A DNA stretch of 20,345 bases, from positions 1 to 20,345 of IMG/VR virus record IMGVR_UViG_3300025806_000294; one strand, 5' to 3'. The notes under the pieces were generated by a model, which saw only the letters and a program-made list of their open reading frames with translations, was not told where the DNA came from and did no database searches. This DNA is from a virus. Made by a program: the position numbers and the translations under genes. Shown here in pieces: positions 1-18,856 of the stretch (positions are counted from its first letter, which is position 1; every line of letters begins with the position of its first letter).

Positions 1-2269
1 CCTTCTGGTTACTTAACGAATCAAACAAAGCCTTTAGCTCAGGGTCTGCGTTAACCTTACTAACAATAGAAGTATCTGAAATCCTATCAATACCCACAAC
101 ACCCTTAGGGGTTACCTTTAATCCCTTGAAACCCTGAACAATGCCCTTAGGGTCTAAGCTGTTGGTTAATTGAATGAGCTTATCACCCAACCCTACAAGA
201 GCTTTGTATCGTGGACTCTGAAGTCTAATGTTATCCTTAGCAGCCTTAAGCTGTGGCTCAGCCATGTAACCTTCTGCTCCGAAGAACATGTGACCAAAGC
301 CCCTAAGCAATGCTCTTTCCTGTGTAGTATTACTACCGGGTTTAATTACATACTTAACACCAGAGCCAATGATATTACGCATCATGTGGTTAGTCTGGAA
401 GCTATTGTTCTGAATAACATTAAACCTATGAGTTCCCGACTGATTGTTGAAGGTATGATAAAAAGGTTTACCTGAATATTGACCTAGCATCCCAGCAACT
501 TCCATGTGCTTTGCTACAAAACTAAAGTAAGCTGGTCGTAGTTCGCTCCCTGCTACAGGTATAATAGGTTTACCCTGCTCATCTTGCTTTACTAAATACT
601 CTGGGTTGTGCTCTGGTATAAGTGCATACTGGGCAGCTGGAGTATATTTAGCTCTAACCTTTTCGACAGCTTCCTTTTGTTGAAGTAAGACTTCCCTCCT
701 GTACATTAAATCTTTAGCGTTCGTAGGTCTAAGGGCTAACTTATTAGCTATGTCTTCTAGCTCTAGGTTAATAGCTTCAAGCTTAGCTGCCTGCTTTTGA
801 CCAATCTGCATAACCTTATTGATACGCTCACTACCTTGCTCTACTAAGTTGTGAGTAAAGTTTTCTGAAGTTGGCCCAAAGATAACCGGGTTAGTAGCTA
901 CAGCTGCAGATTGTAATGCTGCAAAAAGAACACCTCTTCTGCTATCAATAACACTCATAACCTGAGAAGAGTTATGAATGGCTTCTTCTACTTCCTCGGG
1001 TACGGGGTTAGGGTTAGCTCCAGATCTAGTAGGAAGTAAGCTACTCTCGTACTGGTATCTGCCCTCAGTTGGTGGTACATATAAGAACTGCTTGTTAAAG
1101 TTTGGTACAGATACATTACCAGCTTCTTGCCTTAGAACCTGCTCACCAAATGGTGTCAACACGTACTGAGACTCACCGCCCTCAGGCCCCATGTTAACCT
1201 TATTAACCATGCGTGGGTTAACTGCTTGGTAGTAAGCCATCAAAGACTTACCGATTAACTCAAAGGCTTCAGGGGTAAGGTTACGGAAGTCCTGCACATA
1301 CTCATCAGTATCTGTGCCTTCCATGTCTGCTATAACTCTACGAAGTTGTTGGAAACTATCACGACCAAGACGAGACATACTAACATCTGCTTCATCTACT
1401 ACCGCAGGGTCAAAGGTATCCTCTTCTTTAGTCGCTATCTTTTCTCTAGCAGCAGCTTGGTTTAGCATAAAATCTTCAACCGCCATAGAGATTACAGGGT
1501 TAAACTTTTTATTGATACCAGCTACCTGCTCACTACCTTCAACTGACCTACGATTAGTCAATCCACCCAAAGCTTTCTTAGAAGTAAAGATATTCTGAGG
1601 TGTTAAGATTAAAGAACTTTTGTCCTTTCTCATCATCATAGGTTTATCTTTAGAGCTCTCTAGCTTAGCCTTATCCTTAGCTTCAATAGTCTCTTCAAAC
1701 TTATCGGTACCTACATCCACGTCAGCTGCTACATTGTCAAACGAATCCAACCTAAGGTTCACTACATCATAAGCCAATGGGGTGTTCACTGTAGCTGCCA
1801 ACCTAGTACCAGTGTAAGGTCCTAGTTGAGTAACTATGTTATCTAAGTTTGTAGATAAACCGTTAGCTCTAAGGAGGCTAGGGACCTTTTCAGATTCCCT
1901 TTGAGCTTGTTGCTCAGGACTTAGTTCTTCTACAGGAGCTCCTGCAGTTTCTATAGTTTCCTTAAGAGCATCAGCTGTGCCTACCGAAGTAGCACCCTGT
2001 TCATGGGCAGTCTCTGTCGCAGCAATTGTAGCATCAAGCCTATCTTTAGCTGATAAGCCTAAAGAGTCTACTGGGTTTTTTAATAAACCTACAGACTCAA
2101 GCTCTGCCTCTGTAGCTGTACTAATAAGTGGGGCATCCCGCCCCTTTTCTTCATCCTTGGGAATGGCAGGAGCATCTTGCTCTAAGTTTTGTATCAAGTC
2201 GTATTGCTTAGCTTTTACGTCTTGCGGTGTTTCAAAGACTTGACCTACTACTCTTGGGCCTTTAGCCAT
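1..2269 (-). CDS. Giant internal virion protein, partial; possible virion RNA polymerase
   Basis: The frame is open from the ATG at 2269 to the left edge: 756 codons, no stop, so the C-terminus is missing. The start lies in a TAATG overlap with the stop of the 1581-residue gene. Residues 1-130 are acidic and low in complexity and contain a short motif, ATEAELESVGLLK (52-64), shared with the upstream giant. Residues about 480-545 look like a coiled coil. Residues 602-634 (around SGTHRF, 611-616) resemble the palm entry of T7-type single-subunit RNA polymerases: Arg615 would match the Arg of DxxGR/TxxGR, and Gln625, Asn627, Met629, Arg631 and Ile633-Ile634 fall at the same offsets as Q, N, M, K, L-L in T7 RNAP. 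The catalytic Asp, Lys/Tyr and HD motifs would lie beyond the window, so this is unproven. Placement after the ejection proteins fits a protein packaged in the virion and injected. The alternative is another internal core protein with no enzymatic role. Confidence 0.85.
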   Translation of the reverse strand, partial: MAKGPRVVGQVFETPQDVKAKQYDLIQNLEQDAPAIPKDEEKGRDAPLISTATEAELESVGLLKNPVDSLGLSAKDRLDATIAATETAHEQGATSVGTADALKETIETAGAPVEELSPEQQAQRESEKVPSLLRANGLSTNLDNIVTQLGPYTGTRLAATVNTPLAYDVVNLRLDSFDNVAADVDVGTDKFEETIEAKDKAKLESSKDKPMMMRKDKSSLILTPQNIFTSKKALGGLTNRRSVEGSEQVAGINKKFNPVISMAVEDFMLNQAAAREKIATKEEDTFDPAVVDEADVSMSRLGRDSFQQLRRVIADMEGTDTDEYVQDFRNLTPEAFELIGKSLMAYYQAVNPRMVNKVNMGPEGGESQYVLTPFGEQVLRQEAGNVSVPNFNKQFLYVPPTEGRYQYESSLLPTRSGANPNPVPEEVEEAIHNSSQVMSVIDSRRGVLFAALQSAAVATNPVIFGPTSENFTHNLVEQGSERINKVMQIGQKQAAKLEAINLELEDIANKLALRPTNAKDLMYRREVLLQQKEAVEKVRAKYTPAAQYALIPEHNPEYLVKQDEQGKPIIPVAGSELRPAYFSFVAKHMEVAGMLGQYSGKPFYHTFNNQSGTHRFNVIQNNSFQTNHMMRNIIGSGVKYVIKPGSNTTQERALLRGFGHMFFGAEGYMAEPQLKAAKDNIRLQSPRYKALVGLGDKLIQLTNSLDPKGIVQGFKGLKVTPKGVVGIDRISDTSIVSKVNADPELKALFDSLSNQK

Positions 2270-5200
2270 TAGTTATCTCCTGTTATCCATTGGGCTTGTA
2301 CCATACTATCGTAGATACGATGTTTGAATGGTGATCCTAAAGGGAGAAGACTCGCACCTGATTTAACAGTAGCTCTTGAGTCACCTTCTATAAGACCATG
2401 CCCTAGTTTATAAACGTTTTCAAAGATAGCAGAAGAAGGTGCTTCACCAGTACCGAAGTTCCAGATAGCTTCACCCATAGTTCTACTTCTATCTTCATAC
2501 AAAGGGAACAGCATGTTGTTGCTAAGAACCCTTTCAGTTGTACCTAGTAACCCTGAACTATACAGGGCTCTGAGGTACTTTTCGTTATCTTCTAAGTAAG
2601 GTGAAGACTCACCAAACTTAATAAGGTCCTTCAAGTGTTGAGCAGCATAACCAAGTAACAGCATAGACATTAAAGTTGCAAACGTAGAGTACTTAAACCC
2701 TGGAGTTGCACTCTTAACTAGGTCATACAGTCTTGGTATGTGATGCGCTGTGAACTTAGATATAAAACCTTGGAACTGCGTAAACATAGCGTAGTGAGGA
2801 TCACTGTAGAACAAAGGTCTGCCCATAGCATCTGGTAAAGGTACAGCTTCATTGATAAAGTTAAACAAACCGTTATCAAACTGTGCTTCCCAATCTGCTT
2901 GTAACTTAGGGCTAGGGTTACCTTCAGCTGCTAGTAACTCCTCAGACAACTCTAACATCCTGTCAGGTGGTACACCCATCTTCTCGAGGAACCTTCGGGC
3001 TTCTCGAGTTTCGTTAGTGTCAGCTGTACCTTCGTTCTTCTGCTGGTGTAGTATGTCTAAGTTTCTGATTAAGAAGTCATTAAAGAAAGAAGCTCGGACA
3101 GTACGTGTTGCATTAGTAACAGCATTCAAACCAATCACCTTAAAGAATGCATCCATAAGGTTCTTAGTGAACTTGTTAAATTCTGTAACACCTGTTAGCT
3201 GAGCCTGACCTGTCCTAGCGTCACCGTAACCTACCCTTCTATTCAAACCTGCAGGGTCATTGTACTCAACAAACCGTACATCTGTGTCCTTTTTATTTCT
3301 ACTTTTAATCTTAGTCTCAAAGCTACTACGCTGTGGGGCAATGCCCGTAAGCCTACCAACCTCTGCAAAGTACTCAAAGATCTCACGCCCTAAGATCATA
3401 CCTAAGCTACCTACGTTCTTGTTAAGTGTTTTTACATCAACACCTACAGGTGTCAAAGCAAACTCAACAATAGACATAGGGGCTGCAAGGCCAAGCATAG
3501 TGAGTACACCAGTAAGCGTCAATGCTTTCTGAGTACCCCTAAGTACGTCACTCTCAATACGTTTGTAGTTACCAGAGTCAGCGTTAATAAGATCTCGAGT
3601 AAGCCTTGCTATGTCATTGACATCAGCGTTAGCAACTTCTGCATCAGCAGACTCTTCCTCAAGCCCTTCGGTAAACTCTCGTTGTATCTTATCAAACATA
3701 CTGGTAAGTAGTGAACTATTAGGTCCAACAAACTTAGTCATAGTAGTGTATCGAGCTGCAGACTTCATAGAGTTTTCTAAGTTATCAAAGAGATTATTCT
3801 CAAAGAACTCAGAAAAAGCGTTGTTATCTGCAATATCTAACGATCTACGCTTGTGTGTCTTAGGGTTTATACCACCTTTAGTTAAGTCGAATGCATCGTC
3901 TAGTGTGTTAATCTCAGGGTTATCCAAGATAGCATTAGTAACAGCATTAGCTTCTTCAACATTCAGTCCTTTCTCTGACATAAGAAGGTTAATAAACTTT
4001 TCTTTGTTAGCAGAAATAGCTGACTTTAAAAAGCTTTTACTTCTAAAGATGTGATCCTGAAGGTCCCCAATAGGGGGTATGTTAGCCCGTGCCTGCGCAA
4101 GAGTAACGCTTTCATACATCTTACGGTCTACTTGATACAGTCTATCAATAAGGTCCTTAAGAGCTGCAGAGTTTTCTTGAAACTCAGGCTTAGATAGGTT
4201 GTCCCAATCAATCATAGCAACAACAGAGTCACCAGTTATCCATGTCTGGTTGTTATCTTGCTTCTCTGTTACAGGTTTAATGTGTACATTATAAAAATCA
4301 TACACAAGAGCAGACAGTGCCTCACGCTTAGCACCAGATCTTCTACCGTCTAGTTTAAAAGCAGAATACAAAGCTCTAACTTCAGGTATTACTCGTTCAA
4401 AGGATTCAAAGTTAAGCATCTTATCTGAGTGAAAGTCAATACCAGCATGTACTTTGGTAGCCTTACCACCAAGCATATCGTATAAACGTCTCAGAGTCTT
4501 GCTCTTTTGCAGTCTCTCGATAGTAAAGACAGTATCCCTAGCATCCCTAAGGGTAAACGCAGGGTCCATTAGACCGTCCTTAAGGGACTCTGTGGAGGGC
4601 TTAGCATCATAGTCTGTTTGACCAGCATCAGCTCTATCGGAGAACTTTACGTCCTCGACTGCCTCTGCATCTACGTCAGCTTGTTTCATCTGATCGTACT
4701 CATCTATGTCGCCTTTAGGTTTCTTAGGCTTAGGGCTACTCTTAGCTCTAGTAGTATCAGCCCACTCTTCTTCAATAATCTCACTAAGATCAGCTACACG
4801 CCCTGTATCGGGGTCCTTAGCTTCTGAACGGAATGTATCAGCAGCGTCATCAAACCTGCCATCATACTCAGACATAGCAACAGTTGCATCTCGCCACTGA
4901 CCTGCTTCCCAAACACCACCGGGTAAAGAAAAACCTGCACCCATAAGTCCACCAGCTATAACAGCATTGGTCATTCGGTGTTGTAGTTCGTCAAAGTCCC
5001 AAGTTTTCTCAGAGCCTATGACTGCAGCAGTGTACATTGTGAGTTCCTGAAGCATCTCTGTGCTTCCCTCGAATGCTGCACCCTGTGCCAATCGCTTAGA
5101 TAAGTCTTTTAAGACAGCACCTTTGGTTAGTTGTAACTTTGTAAACTTAGCTACGTCATCTGCATAAGAAACAATCTGTCTCTTAGTCATTTTCTGTAGT

Positions 5201-7014
5201 GCAAGTGCAGCTTGTTCTCTAGTAAGGCCTACTCGCAATGCATTACCAACTTTATCAGAAGGTAACATCGACACTGCTCTTGCTCTTGAAGGTCCTGTAG
5301 ATTGCATAACCAACTTGATAGCTGATTCTTTACCCTCTTTAGTAAGAAACTGAGAAGGTTTAATAAGACCTGCAGCACCCTTGACACCAAAGACATCTAG
5401 TGCAGCAGCTATACCACCGCCTACAATAGCAACACCATAGTTCTTTTGGTCTTGCTCTCCGGGCATTTCATCCAGAATCATACCTGAATACATAGCTACT
5501 GGAACACTAAGGCTACCTCCGAATGTAAAAGGAGCAGCCACAATAGAAGCGATAGTCACCCCCATAAAAGGCATAGAGGTTGCAAGGTTAGCACCCACAA
5601 ACTCACCAATCTCCCCAAGGTCTGTCCAGTTTACATCACGGTAGTCTAAACGTACTTTAGGTTTGTCAGATAGTTGCTGTCTTGAGTAGTCAATACTGCC
5701 CAGAAGTGATGCCTCAGCCTCTTCAAAGCCTGTTACGTCAGCAGCCATTACACCTACTTGCTTAAATGCATTACCAACCATGGTAAGTGCAGAGTCCCAA
5801 GACTGGGAGAAGGGGTGTATAGCTCTGTTCTCGTATGTAGCATTGTTGTTACGAATAACTACATCAGTGTAGAAGTCAGGCATGAGTGAGTACTCTGCTT
5901 CATTCAAGGCTCTCTTCTTAGCTATGATTTCTCCACCAGTACTCTCAAGGCTAGCAGCCTTAATAATCTGAGAAGCAATCTCTATGTCACTCTTCTTTCT
6001 GTACGGATCAGCAATAGACCGATCAGCTACTCCATGTAAGTATCGTGAGTAGTCATCATCGCTCATAGTCTTAGTAGTTCTACCAATAAGGGTAGGCTTA
6101 GCAATACCTGAGGATATCAAAAGATTCTGGAAAGAGTTACCCTCCTCGTCTACTAGGTCACCAACCTTACGGCCATACCCAGCATCTTCATCTTTTACTT
6201 TTACTTTAGTGTAGCCGTAACGGTTAGCTAACGAAGCAATGTACTGCTTAGCTACCTGACCACCAGACTCACCCATGATGTAGCCCTTATCCTTAAGGAC
6301 CTTTTCAACTTCCTCGATGTCTATCCCTTCAAACCTAACAGACTCGCTAGTTTCTTTATTACGGAAAGTATCACCATCAATAAACTTATATCCTGAGTCA
6401 CCGATGTCATAGTCGGCTTCGGAGGGTGCAGCCTCAGGAACTGCTCTCCTCTTTTCTGCGTAACTTGAGACAGCATCAGAGACTCTCTTCATGCGCTTAT
6501 GCACACCAGAGCCAGTTACCTCTGAGTTACGGTAGTCATTGTTATCAAGGAACTCCTGAGATGCCTGAGCGTAGTTACCTTGATTAAGTAGTTTTAGAAA
6601 CGTAGGTGAATGTCCAAGGTCTCCTCGGTACTCAGCTTGTATAAGCTCAGCCTGAAGGTCCTCAGGGTATTCATCTAAGTTTGGGATTCTTGTTCTGGCT
6701 CTATCAACGTGGTGTGTAAATGCAGCTTCAAAACCTGCTTCAATCCACTGACCAGTTTGGCCTACACCTTGAGTAGTAATACCCTTAGTGTCGGTATAAG
6801 GGGTAGCAACGTACCCCTCTTCCTCTACGACTCTCTTCTCAGCATAAGTAAGTGGGCGACCAATGTTACCCTCTACCTGTGCTATAGCGTCAGAGCCATA
6901 GTAGACTTCCTTGTCCACCGTACTATCAACTGTAGGATTAGAGTCGGTACTTGCGCTCTTTAGCAAACCTACCTCTTGTAATTCTTCATCTGTAGCTTTA
7001 ATCTTGTCGCTCAT
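2269..7014 (-). CDS. Giant internal virion/ejection protein with GH24 lysozyme and SNase-like nuclease domains
   Basis: This 1581-residue protein is probably stored in the capsid and ejected during infection. Residues about 50-190 form a GH24 (T4-lysozyme-type) muramidase: Glu66, Asp75 and Thr81 are spaced exactly as Glu11, Asp20 and Thr26 of T4 lysozyme, and the C-terminal lobe (LGHSPTFLKLL, then VHKRMKRVS at 171-179) is present. Residues about 205-335 match staphylococcal nuclease: IDGDTF at 212-217 gives Asp213 and Asp215, then Arg227, Asp232, Glu235 and YGR with Arg282. Only the Thr41 equivalent is changed (Ile233). Hydrophobic stretches at about 473-510, 526-550, 684-700, 1165-1190 and 1440-1460 could enter the host membrane, as T7 gp16 does. 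Residues 750-815 are charged linker. The last 170 residues resemble a C-terminal domain seen in other large phage virion proteins (recalled, not searched). The ATG at 7014 has AGGAGA upstream. Role by inference: local wall digestion, channel formation and possibly cleavage of host nucleic acid. Confidence 0.9.
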   Translation of the reverse strand: MSDKIKATDEELQEVGLLKSASTDSNPTVDSTVDKEVYYGSDAIAQVEGNIGRPLTYAEKRVVEEEGYVATPYTDTKGITTQGVGQTGQWIEAGFEAAFTHHVDRARTRIPNLDEYPEDLQAELIQAEYRGDLGHSPTFLKLLNQGNYAQASQEFLDNNDYRNSEVTGSGVHKRMKRVSDAVSSYAEKRRAVPEAAPSEADYDIGDSGYKFIDGDTFRNKETSESVRFEGIDIEEVEKVLKDKGYIMGESGGQVAKQYIASLANRYGYTKVKVKDEDAGYGRKVGDLVDEEGNSFQNLLISSGIAKPTLIGRTTKTMSDDDYSRYLHGVADRSIADPYRKKSDIEIASQIIKAASLESTGGEIIAKKRALNEAEYSLMPDFYTDVVIRNNNATYENRAIHPFSQSWDSALTMVGNAFKQVGVMAADVTGFEEAEASLLGSIDYSRQQLSDKPKVRLDYRDVNWTDLGEIGEFVGANLATSMPFMGVTIASIVAAPFTFGGSLSVPVAMYSGMILDEMPGEQDQKNYGVAIVGGGIAAALDVFGVKGAAGLIKPSQFLTKEGKESAIKLVMQSTGPSRARAVSMLPSDKVGNALRVGLTREQAALALQKMTKRQIVSYADDVAKFTKLQLTKGAVLKDLSKRLAQGAAFEGSTEMLQELTMYTAAVIGSEKTWDFDELQHRMTNAVIAGGLMGAGFSLPGGVWEAGQWRDATVAMSEYDGRFDDAADTFRSEAKDPDTGRVADLSEIIEEEWADTTRAKSSPKPKKPKGDIDEYDQMKQADVDAEAVEDVKFSDRADAGQTDYDAKPSTESLKDGLMDPAFTLRDARDTVFTIERLQKSKTLRRLYDMLGGKATKVHAGIDFHSDKMLNFESFERVIPEVRALYSAFKLDGRRSGAKREALSALVYDFYNVHIKPVTEKQDNNQTWITGDSVVAMIDWDNLSKPEFQENSAALKDLIDRLYQVDRKMYESVTLAQARANIPPIGDLQDHIFRSKSFLKSAISANKEKFINLLMSEKGLNVEEANAVTNAILDNPEINTLDDAFDLTKGGINPKTHKRRSLDIADNNAFSEFFENNLFDNLENSMKSAARYTTMTKFVGPNSSLLTSMFDKIQREFTEGLEEESADAEVANADVNDIARLTRDLINADSGNYKRIESDVLRGTQKALTLTGVLTMLGLAAPMSIVEFALTPVGVDVKTLNKNVGSLGMILGREIFEYFAEVGRLTGIAPQRSSFETKIKSRNKKDTDVRFVEYNDPAGLNRRVGYGDARTGQAQLTGVTEFNKFTKNLMDAFFKVIGLNAVTNATRTVRASFFNDFLIRNLDILHQQKNEGTADTNETREARRFLEKMGVPPDRMLELSEELLAAEGNPSPKLQADWEAQFDNGLFNFINEAVPLPDAMGRPLFYSDPHYAMFTQFQGFISKFTAHHIPRLYDLVKSATPGFKYSTFATLMSMLLLGYAAQHLKDLIKFGESSPYLEDNEKYLRALYSSGLLGTTERVLSNNMLFPLYEDRSRTMGEAIWNFGTGEAPSSAIFENVYKLGHGLIEGDSRATVKSGASLLPLGSPFKHRIYDSMVQAQWITGDN

Positions 7015-7041: not shown

Positions 7042-9489
7042 TTACTTCATTTTATTTATTACGTCTTGCATGCTTCCTGCAAAGTACTTAGAGCTTGTAG
7101 CGGATTTATTTCTATCCATAGACATAACCCAAAGTAAAGCGGGGGATGCCCCCTGTCCTTTCTTATCAGCAGAGTCTTCTGATTCAGATTCCCAAAAGGT
7201 TTTAAACTCAGGTCCCATTTCTTCAGATTGCTTGTTGTAAAGTCTTTCTAAGTTACTCCACATAGCTACTTTGGGTACTGCTTTATTAGCACCTATTTCT
7301 TTACCAAAAGCACTAGCTAAATACTTAACTTTAGCTGTAGCTTTAGACCAAGCTTCGCCACCAATAGCATCTTCAGAGTCATCTCCTACAACCTTAAAGA
7401 AAGAAGGGCTGATTGAATACTCAGTCTCAACCTTAAGTCTTTCTTTTTCCATAAAGGCTGCAAGGTTTTTAGAATTACCTTCCATACCCCTAGCCACAGA
7501 CTGAATGTATTTTTGAACTGCATTAGTAGAAACCTCTTGCAGGTTAAAGTCACTAAAGTCAGTGCCTGCTGGGTAAAAGGATTTAAATGCTCTAGCAGCT
7601 CCATTTCTTACAGTGCCGTTTATAGCGGAGTTAAGTCTAGTAGTTAGTGCTTCAGCTTCCTCAGTCTCAAGTCCTTGTTCGCTAACATAAGTAGCAATAG
7701 AACCTTCAACATCAAGATCTATGTTAGCTCTTATACCAGAAATAATATCGTTACCAGTTAAACCAACCCCTACACTAAACCGCTTACCACCTTGAGCTGC
7801 TCTTACATTAGCAACAGGGAGTACAGGGTATACACCACTTGCATCTGGCTCTATACCTAAGGACTCGTAGAAGCTAGCGTCATCAAGACGAACCATTGTA
7901 CCGTCAGCAGAGAAAGCACCTGTAAGGTTTGTCTCTGTTTCTTTGTCGTAAATAGTTGCTACCTTAGAAGGGTCAATAGCTTTAGCTTTCTTCTCTGCTT
8001 TAAGAGTAGCTAAGCCTTCCTTACCATATATCTTCTCAAGCTCAAACTCTTGCTTTCTTTCAGCAGCTTGTACTTTCCACTCATTCTCTAGTACTTGACC
8101 AGCAAAGGTAACACCATCGTAGCCTAAGGCTCTAGAACCCACATAAGCGAATAGTGTCTTACGGAAAGCTGGGTCTTCCATACCTTCCTTAAACATATCC
8201 TTCATGCCACCCCAAAGTTTCTTAAGGAATCCTTCCTTCTCTTCTGGAGGTGCATCCTTCTTAGGAGCAGTACCTGCACCCTTAACTAGAGCATCCGCAT
8301 CAGTTTTAACTGGATCTGTAATAGTAGTCTCAGCTTCTTCAGCGTCTTGCTGTGTAAGGTTACTGCCACCTGTAACATCTGGTTGCGTAGTTGTAACAGC
8401 TGGTTGAGTAGGTGTTAAGTCTACTGCAGGTTCAACCACAGGGATATTAGATCCTTCTGGTTCAGGTATGTCTGGGAATAAAGCCTCTCCTGCTTCACTT
8501 CCTGCGTAAAGACCTGCACCTGTAGCCCCTGTTTTTATAGGGGAAACTGTAAACACTTCTTTAGTAGTTTTTACCGGATCATAAACCCCCGGCTGGCCCT
8601 CTCTTTGTACCTTGGTAGTGGTACTTTTACCCGGAACTGTTTTAGTGTTACCAAAGAAATCTCTAAACCTTTTAGGTAATTTACCTCTAGTAAAGTTACT
8701 TAGTTTACCAACAACCTTAGCTGCCCCACTAGTTACAGCGCTTCCTATTCTTGCAGCGGGGTATAAGGATACACCAGCAGCTGCAGCTTCTACAGGATTA
8801 TCTTTAACCCAGTTAGCAAACTCATAAGTTTTATCAAGTGTTTCTTGGCTAGAGACATCTTCTTCAAACCCAGAAGGTAAGTATGAAGGCCTTGGGGCTC
8901 TCATGTTATCAAAGAACGAGGGCTCTCTCTCAACTTCCTGTGATCCTTCAGAACCCACTGTCTGACTAAGTTTAGCTGGGCCTTGAGGCATAGAGTCTAA
9001 AAAGTTAGGATCAGTAACTTGAGGGATATTACCACCAAGCTGAGGTACTTGCTCTATGCCCCTAGTAGGTTCAGGTGCTTCAGGTGCTTCAGGTAAACCT
9101 TGAGCAGATTCTCCTAACACTACCTGTTCAGGTGGACGTAGGACAAAGTTATCAGAGTTTGGAAGAGGAGCAGCTGTAGGCATTGTAGGCTGAGGTATGT
9201 TCATTTGCACAGGGGGTACAACACCGATGTTATCAAAAGACTCTGGTGTATACTGTTGGTTAAATGCTGTGTCTACTGGCATTAGCTTAGATGGGTCCAT
9301 ATTTTGCTGGAATGCTAATTCCTGAGAGGTCTCTTGTAGCGGAATAAACTGCTGAGGTGCCATAGGTATCTGAACCTGAGGGATCTGCTGTTGTGTCATT
9401 TGAGGAACTTGGAATCTATTTACATCTTCCGCATCCATATCATCCACTAGGCCCCTAAGGAGCTTTGATAAATCTGTTATATTAGACAT
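7042..9489 (-). CDS. Internal virion (ejection) protein, Pro/Gln-rich N-terminus
   Basis: This 815-residue protein has no family I can name with certainty. Residues 25-200 are rich in Pro and Gln (PQMTQQQIPQVQIPMAPQQ at 29-47) and are probably disordered. Residues 232-262 and 312-337 are Ala/Gly-rich and weakly hydrophobic, compatible with membrane contact. A basic stretch at about 262-300 lies between them. Residues 338-415 are a Pro/Thr/Glu-rich linker. From about 416 an amphipathic segment (FLKKLWGGMKDMFKEGM) begins, followed by a charged helical region and a folded C-terminal half. It lies directly before the lysozyme-nuclease giant and after the Gly/Ala-rich protein, the place and size of P22 gp20-type or T7 gp15-type ejection proteins. 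The ATG at 9489 has AGGAGA seven bases or so upstream. A role in the ejection conduit is inferred from context; a scaffold-like role cannot be excluded. Confidence 0.8.
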   Translation of the reverse strand: MSNITDLSKLLRGLVDDMDAEDVNRFQVPQMTQQQIPQVQIPMAPQQFIPLQETSQELAFQQNMDPSKLMPVDTAFNQQYTPESFDNIGVVPPVQMNIPQPTMPTAAPLPNSDNFVLRPPEQVVLGESAQGLPEAPEAPEPTRGIEQVPQLGGNIPQVTDPNFLDSMPQGPAKLSQTVGSEGSQEVEREPSFFDNMRAPRPSYLPSGFEEDVSSQETLDKTYEFANWVKDNPVEAAAAGVSLYPAARIGSAVTSGAAKVVGKLSNFTRGKLPKRFRDFFGNTKTVPGKSTTTKVQREGQPGVYDPVKTTKEVFTVSPIKTGATGAGLYAGSEAGEALFPDIPEPEGSNIPVVEPAVDLTPTQPAVTTTQPDVTGGSNLTQQDAEEAETTITDPVKTDADALVKGAGTAPKKDAPPEEKEGFLKKLWGGMKDMFKEGMEDPAFRKTLFAYVGSRALGYDGVTFAGQVLENEWKVQAAERKQEFELEKIYGKEGLATLKAEKKAKAIDPSKVATIYDKETETNLTGAFSADGTMVRLDDASFYESLGIEPDASGVYPVLPVANVRAAQGGKRFSVGVGLTGNDIISGIRANIDLDVEGSIATYVSEQGLETEEAEALTTRLNSAINGTVRNGAARAFKSFYPAGTDFSDFNLQEVSTNAVQKYIQSVARGMEGNSKNLAAFMEKERLKVETEYSISPSFFKVVGDDSEDAIGGEAWSKATAKVKYLASAFGKEIGANKAVPKVAMWSNLERLYNKQSEEMGPEFKTFWESESEDSADKKGQGASPALLWVMSMDRNKSATSSKYFAGSMQDVINKMK

Positions 9490-18457: not shown

Positions 18458-18856
18458 TTATTTATCTCGTTGAACGCCTTTGGCTTTCTCAACGGTCCTC
18501 ATGGCACCTAGGCCAAGCATACCTAATAGCACAGGCATCATCTCTGATAGAGCTATAAGGGGTATAGTGATTGTAGAATTGGATAAAGCAAGCGCAAAGT
18601 TTGCCATCGGTATGACCAAGAAGTTACTTGCCATTCCCAAGCAACATACCCAACCCACAGCTGGCCTCCAACCTGCGACGAATAAACTTTTGTGTTCCGC
18701 TTCTTTCTTATTAACTTCAATCTGAGCTTTAGAAAGTACCTGCGCATGCTCTTGAGCCATGGTTGCAATCTTGTGGGCAATGGCATTCTTCTTGTCTTTG
18801 TCCTCTATAAATTTATCCAGTAGCCCTGTAACAGGCCCTATAAGTTGTGCTAGCAT
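18458..18856 (-). CDS. Holin, GTA 3TM type
   Basis: The 132-residue product matches the layout of the 'holin of 3TMs, for gene-transfer release' family. An N-terminal amphipathic helix (MLAQLIGPVTGLLDKF) is followed by a charged helical region with many Lys/Glu/Gln (18-56), then AGWRPAVGWVCCLG (61-74), the family's GWRP signature, within a first membrane segment (about 59-90), a second segment (about 96-118) and a basic tail. It would form pores in the inner membrane and time lysis. AGGAGAG lies just upstream of the ATG at 18856. No separate endolysin gene is visible nearby; it may lie outside the window. Confidence 0.85.
   Translation of the reverse strand: MLAQLIGPVTGLLDKFIEDKDKKNAIAHKIATMAQEHAQVLSKAQIEVNKKEAEHKSLFVAGWRPAVGWVCCLGMASNFLVIPMANFALALSNSTITIPLIALSEMMPVLLGMLGLGAMRTVEKAKGVQRDK

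Follow-up and report, generated by a model that had tools for sequence, protein, structure and literature searches.

A predicted phage ejection protein combining a divergent GH24 lysozyme with a staphylococcal-nuclease-like domain

The ejection proteins of phages are known for their wall hydrolases. In phage T7, residues 1-228 of the large ejection protein gp16 are periplasmic and its wall hydrolase is N-terminal, and wall-hydrolase domains are swapped among ejection proteins (PMC8954989). Enzymes acting on nucleic acid have been described next to such hydrolases, or in their place, in two other settings. Polyvalent proteins are multi-enzyme proteins thought to be injected together with the phage DNA, and in prophages they include a fusion of a lysozyme with a DdrB-type ParB DNase (Iyer et al. 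2017, PMC5512222). The BtI1 homologue of the gp147 baseplate hub of Bacillus phage 0305phi8-36 possesses an N-terminal domain related to staphylococcal nuclease (SNase) where the phage has a transglycosylase, and in 2007 the authors had no explanation for an SNase in a phage-like hub protein (PMC2147016).

The window analysed here, i.e. the whole stretch of 20,345 nucleotides taken from the IMG/VR virus record IMGVR_UViG_3300025806_000294, contains tail, holin and other structural-type genes, all of them on the minus strand. An earlier note, made from the letters alone, had proposed that one virion protein of this stretch joins a GH24 lysozyme to an SNase-like domain at 6010-6867, which corresponds to residues 50-335 of a 1581-residue protein. 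The open reading frame (2269-7014, from the ORF list and its translation) and all residues named there (E66/D75/T81; D213, D215, R227, D232, I233, E235, R282) are present in the translation. The protein is organized as follows:

2269..7014, minus strand: whole gene, 1581 aa, comprising an N-terminal 36 aa, GH24, a linker, SNase and a long body
6454..6906, minus strand: predicted GH24 lysozyme domain, residues 37-187 (profiles, conservation, structure models)
6817-6819, minus strand: GH24 catalytic E66, invariant in relatives
6790-6792, minus strand: GH24 catalytic D75, invariant in relatives
6772-6774, minus strand: GH24 catalytic T81, invariant in relatives
6010..6408, minus strand: predicted SNase domain, residues 203-335 (profiles, conservation, structure models)
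6376-6378, minus strand: SNase active-site D213 (this and the next five by alignment to staphylococcal nuclease)
6370-6372, minus strand: SNase active-site D215
6334-6336, minus strand: SNase active-site R227
6319-6321, minus strand: SNase active-site D232
6310-6312, minus strand: SNase active-site E235
6169-6171, minus strand: SNase active-site R282
2272..6009, minus strand: protein body, residues 336-1581, homologous along its length to CRP-7 gp34, with a match to a "virion structural protein" family at residues 1275-1472
5371..5601, minus strand: hydrophobic stretch, residues 472-548, behind both enzyme domains (Kyte-Doolittle scan)
3454..3516, minus strand: second hydrophobic stretch, residues 1167-1187, predicted (Kyte-Doolittle scan)

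Full-length relatives of the protein show a mean column identity of 66% in their alignment. The search of the PHROGs assigned the whole 1581-aa protein to the "virion structural protein" family phrog_6958 (E=1.8e-19), and residues 37-345 to a single family of unknown function, phrog_37474 (E=6e-41), the profile of which also covers the protein of the Alteromonas phage H4/4 type. The stretch of residues 472-548 is predicted to be possibly membrane-inserting. Taken alone, the 1581-aa protein reaches only sub-threshold scores for both enzyme domains in Pfam: 18.2 bits for PF00959 at residues 64-167 (curated cut-off 22.3) and 14.7 bits for PF00565 at residues 226-312 (cut-off 21); standard annotation would therefore leave them unnamed. 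A search of solved structures with this protein alone gave no match. The assignments have been made through profiles of relatives and structure models.

For the N-terminal domain, the PHROG endolysin family phrog_7 matches residues 62-156. The profile built from five GH24 relatives found the P22 lysozyme 2anv among the solved structures with E=2.2e-4, and T4 lysozyme with E=0.53. The AlphaFold model of this domain superposes on T4 lysozyme with Z about 11 (118-125 residues, rmsd about 3). The spacing of E66/D75/T81, +9/+15, is identical to that of T4 lysozyme residues 11/20/26, exactly as the earlier note had claimed, and the three residues are invariant in two alignments of GH24 relatives, the full-length set included. 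On the basis of profiles and models, residues 37-187 are assigned to a divergent GH24 lysozyme. In the model of both domains together, pLDDT is about 90 for GH24 and 81-89 for those parts of SNase that are well ordered; the pTM is 0.49, a value that does not fix the orientation of the two domains relative to each other. The VIA-align listing for this two-domain model consisted of lysozyme rows only, and the SNase was therefore modelled on its own.

For the second domain, the profile of seven SNase relatives has staphylococcal nuclease 1syb as its top match among all solved structures (E=7.9e-9). The match spans residues 15-120 of the 1syb chain, with DGD, R, D..E and GR in register with the known active site. 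The separate AlphaFold model (mean pLDDT 76) gave E=2.6e-5 in Foldseek, every listed row being a staphylococcal nuclease, and superposes on this enzyme with Z 8.1-8.5 over 95-116 residues (rmsd 3.3-5.8). A Z of about 8 is moderate taken alone; it is the sequence profile, together with the conservation of the active site, that carries the assignment. A viral structure database already contains an entry for an uncultured phage protein named SNase-like. The equivalents of Asp21, Arg35, Asp40, Glu43 and Arg87 are all five present in the window protein. The alignment of 24 distinct SNase homologues leaves only D213, G214, D215, T216, R227, E235, G267, R282 and G292 without variation; thus the equivalents of Asp19, Asp21, Arg35, Glu43 and Arg87 are unchanged down to about 20% identity. 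The Asp40 equivalent (D232) is Asp in 18 of the homologues and Asn in 6, and the Thr41 equivalent is variable. The second alignment, of 20 SNase domains, agrees with this pattern. The profile and model together identify residues 203-335 as a divergent SNase domain. The residues that the earlier note had equated with the active site of staphylococcal nuclease thus stand, whereas the spacings differ: R227 follows D215 by 12 positions as against 14, and R282 follows E235 by 47 as against 44. The combined profile and structure-prediction check recovered both domains, with the SNase catalytic residues aligned to 1syb; the model of the second domain shows the OB-fold, and the catalytic Asp, Arg and Glu columns do not vary freely, being invariant except for Asp/Asn at Asp40. 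A chance likeness of short motifs is ruled out by the profile, the fold and the conservation.

Asp40 is a Ca2+ ligand in staphylococcal nuclease. Asn occupies this position in the SNase ejection proteins of H4/4 and of six further contigs (L109, L110, L112, L121, L122 and L054), and these members may use metal differently. As Asp40 is Asn in a quarter of the relatives and Thr41 is variable, activity or metal use may differ within the family. Of six pairs compared, five give a dN/dS of 0.11-0.18 for the SNase domain, near the value of the body, and the last is too nearly identical to be informative. These values indicate that the region is under purifying selection, and together with the invariant active site they disfavour a decayed, non-catalytic domain. 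Between the window and its close relative L006, residues 161-400 (window 5815-6534) show 72-87% nucleotide identity, with flanks at about 93-96%. The dS is raised over the SNase segment and its edges, as if exchanged by recombination, and another dip in identity lies at residues 561-641.

The GH24 profile scan over 2.9 million viral contigs yielded 76 contigs. In 19 of these, all other than the window, GH24 and SNase occur in one open reading frame, which makes 20 viral contigs with the window. Eighteen of the 19 belong to the window type, with complete copies of about 1520-1610 aa, and the remaining one (L054) has a body of the H4/4 type, 1976 aa from stop to stop, with the fusion in frame. 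The carriers of the pair are mostly marine phages. The majority of GH24 relatives lack SNase and many SNase ejection proteins lack GH24, so that the pair is not obligatory. In one contig (L012) a gp16-like protein opens with SNase and GH24 is a separate gene behind it. CRP-7-type phages have SNase at the start of the protein and a Pesticin-type lysozyme at the start of the gene before it, and in L121 the preceding gene carries an SLT transglycosylase. N4-like Vibrio phages carry the same GH24 as the first domain of their virion RNA polymerase, where it is not accompanied by SNase. A stand-alone version of the same GH24, 311 aa with LysM-like matches behind it, is located at L069:5929-6861, 2.3 kb upstream of an SNase-first ejection protein. 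Assignment to a prophage or host was attempted as well, and the profile scan of genome contigs returned no relative.

The Alteromonas phages H4/4 and R8W possess a short GH24 gene followed by a large gene opening with SNase, and the annotation of H4/4 places a -1 frameshift between the two frames. In both phages the GH24 frame ends in GTA AAA AAG TAG, i.e. a slippery A_AAA_AAG followed by a stop:

L009:12474-12483 (H4/4) and L020:5962-5971 (R8W): slippery A_AAA_AAG, then TAG, at the end of GH24

A probable frameshift at this site would give GH24 alone plus a GH24-SNase-gp16 fusion. An RNA structure stimulating the H4/4 frameshift has no consistent support, with z of -1.9 in H4/4 and +0.2 in R8W. 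The large body of the H4/4 type belongs to the T7 gp16 family of ejection proteins (phrog_342, E=2.7e-74 for H4/4). In contrast, the window protein has no phrog_342 match in the PHROGs, and in hhalign only SNase aligns between the window family and the H4/4-type proteins; membership of its body in the gp16 family was therefore rejected. By sequence the window protein lies outside this family, and by analogy it may work like a gp16 member. The pair appears to be carried on two bodies without demonstrable common ancestry, for which a very distant homology is possible.

The genes on both sides of the 1581-aa protein, and the copies of the downstream gene in relatives, are located as follows:

7042..9489, minus strand: 815-aa gene upstream, in the same cassette; at this position relatives encode a large protein, in some with a Pesticin-type or SLT wall hydrolase
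2..2269, minus strand: downstream gene, N-terminal 756 aa, running off the window; full length in relatives about 1313-1328 aa
L006:9835-13776 and L114:12424-16410: relatives of the downstream gene

The upstream 815-aa protein has a weak match of 42 columns to the corresponding CRP-7-type proteins (E=1.5e-4, probability 52%). Its homology with the protein at the gp15 position of H4/4 was considered and rejected (E=0.056, probability 1%). In a relative, the copy of the downstream gene matches phrog_2206, a family of virion RNA polymerases, with E=8.7e-7. In the alignment of its relatives EIDG..NG, PLM...YG and HDA.ITD occur at the expected motifs A, B and C of single-subunit RNA polymerases, and hhalign paired motifs A and B of the family with those of the virion RNA polymerase of pVa5 (E=3.8e-5, probability 71%). 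From these matches the downstream gene looks like a small N4-type virion RNA polymerase, that of N4 itself being about 3500 aa. CRP-7 gp33, annotated as hypothetical, belongs to the same family. A virion-RNA-polymerase-like gene next to the 1581-aa protein supports, without proving, ejection of the cassette.

A 52-kb relative (L113-L115) encodes a terminase, portal, scaffold, major head protein, DNA polymerase, primase-helicase and T7-type RNA polymerase; of ten related records tested, nine have a match to the family of this polymerase. The 52-kb relative has a holin, GTA_holin_3TM, but no gene recognisable as a separate endolysin; GH24 could thus also serve lysis. A protein of the same PHROG holin family is encoded at 18458-18856 of the window. 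The relative also contains a cluster of genes for a COOH.NH2 ligase, an amidoligase, a glutamine-fructose-6-phosphate aminotransferase-like protein and a RimK-like protein (L113:14932-19660), perhaps for surface or peptide modification.

Gene order, the relatives and domain swapping are sound grounds for inferring that the protein is probably located in the virion and ejected. The paper on R8W reports limitations of its own proteomic analysis (PMC8228385). It is likely that the protein is a phage ejection (entry) protein, in which GH24 opens peptidoglycan and the adjoining SNase is a catalytically competent, non-specific nuclease, probably Ca2+-dependent, delivered together with it. This reading is supported by (i) intact active sites, purifying selection and the recurrence of the pair on two ejection-type bodies; (ii) the order GH24-then-SNase kept at the start of the gp16-family protein in H4/4 and R8W; (iii) the same GH24 heading the virion RNA polymerase of N4-like Vibrio phages; (iv) the SNase-first homologue in CRP-7-type phages, preceded by a gene that starts with another lysozyme. 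The GH24 muramidase would open peptidoglycan and the SNase would be delivered with it at entry. By analogy with T7 gp16, the N-terminal enzyme region would end in the periplasm, the topology being borrowed in this way since the body is not alignable to bodies of the T7 gp16 type. The SNase would be exposed there, with the hydrophobic stretches of residues 472-548 behind it. Staphylococcal nuclease requires Ca2+, which is scarce in the bacterial cytoplasm and plentiful in seawater and the envelope. The nuclease may be inactive while virions are assembled in the cytoplasm, where Ca2+ is low, and active once in the envelope or seawater, and the own genome of the phage would be spared by passing inside the channel. 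Such Ca2+ gating would explain the building of a non-specific nuclease beside the phage's own genome.

Of the possible targets, we tentatively favour nucleic acid encountered in the envelope during entry, which would include competing DNA, over cytoplasmic host DNA. A more specific picture, which is conceivable but doubtful, is that of mainly marine short-tailed phages with an entry machine armed with a Ca2+-gated SNase, silent in assembly and destroying competing or obstructing nucleic acid in the envelope while their own genome stays inside the channel.

That the SNase enters the cytoplasm of the host and breaks down its DNA or RNA for takeover, like an early DNase, seems unlikely. The non-specific nuclease fold with its intact active site would fit such a role, and the breakdown of host DNA yields nucleotides. 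Ejection proteins are able to reach the cytoplasm, as does the C-terminal part of T7 gp16 (PMC8954989). However, the SNase is N-terminal and adjoins the wall hydrolase, a position that in T7 gp16 is periplasmic, and the incoming DNA of the phage itself would be exposed. The very low free Ca2+ of the cytoplasm also counts against this role.

We give similarly little credence to a dedicated weapon that cuts, at the envelope, DNA brought into the same cell by other phages or plasmids. It would be delivered at the place and time of entry, and the SNase segment is far more diverged between close relatives than most of the protein, but region 561-641 is diverged too, and the exchange is therefore not confined to SNase. 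Cleavage of incoming phage DNA at the envelope is workable in the bacterial defence nuclease SNIPE, which is, however, an unrelated host protein of the GIY-YIG type (PMC13190303). Furthermore, few ejected molecules per virion would face a rare event.

Rather improbable is a non-enzymatic SNase fold forming a nucleic-acid-binding part of the ejection channel that guides the phage's own DNA. OB-folds do bind nucleic acid and the Asp40 and Thr41 equivalents vary; the catalytic Asp, Arg and Glu, however, are invariant at about 20% identity, which is unexpected for pure binding. The SNase folds of eukaryotic Tudor-SN proteins have lost catalysis, which would provide a precedent for such a role.

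A protein acting mainly in lysis, with the nuclease thinning released host DNA, is very improbable. In its favour, GH24 is a classic fold of endolysins, the 52-kb relative has no other recognisable endolysin, the authors of R8W name their GH24 gene endolysin (PMC8228385) and the frameshift site could let H4/4 and R8W make GH24 alone. Against it, the gene lies among large structural-type genes, its product of 1581 aa has a body that matches a virion-structural family, and an entry protein, the N4-like virion RNA polymerase, begins with the same GH24.

Read as an entry protein, the window protein can be compared with several known systems. The T7 gp16 family (phrog_342, including H4/4 and R8W of the genus Foturvirus) likewise consists of large ejection proteins with a wall hydrolase at the N-terminus, and H4/4 and R8W have the identical order GH24-then-SNase, but divided between two frames by the slippery site. 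T7 gp16 itself has a transglycosylase, unlike the GH24 of the window protein, and no nuclease is mentioned for it in the review (PMC8954989). Gp34 of Roseobacter phage CRP-7 (1368 aa, annotated as hypothetical) is homologous to the window protein from SNase to the end (hhalign, E=3e-121). It is without GH24, the wall hydrolase of CRP-7 being of the Pesticin type and opening the preceding gene. The virion RNA polymerases of N4-like Vibrio phages (pVa5 and relatives, Schitoviridae) carry the same GH24 module, with 48% identity, at the N-terminus of an ejected protein; no SNase domain was found in them and their body is a polymerase. Staphylococcal nuclease (PF00565) shares the fold and the active-site residues that are invariant among the 24 homologues (equivalents of Asp19, Asp21, Arg35, Glu43 and Arg87), but it is a secreted single-domain enzyme, whereas the window SNase has Thr41 replaced and other loop lengths.

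The protein shares with the polyvalent proteins the presence of two unrelated enzyme domains, GH24 and SNase, in one chain, and the words "staphylococcal", "thermonuclease" and "SNase" are absent from the text describing that group (PMC5512222). In the BtI1 hub homologue no lysozyme is reported ahead of SNase, and the protein is a baseplate hub from a Bacillus phage lineage. A search of the open-access literature for SNase in internal virion proteins gave no description of the GH24-SNase pair. The earlier statement that a nuclease directly behind such a lysozyme was not known has to be qualified, since the pair recurs in about 20 phage contigs and has kindred precedents (PMC5512222, PMC2147016). 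The GH24-SNase pair joins a conserved nuclease with an intact active site to the wall hydrolase for which ejection proteins are known. It occurs on two bodies that appear to differ, and it has relatives in the isolated phages CRP-7, H4/4 and R8W. The entry apparatus may thus attack nucleic acid too, which is directly testable, and the pair provides an experimental handle on the puzzle posed in 2007 by the SNase domain of a virion hub protein (PMC2147016).
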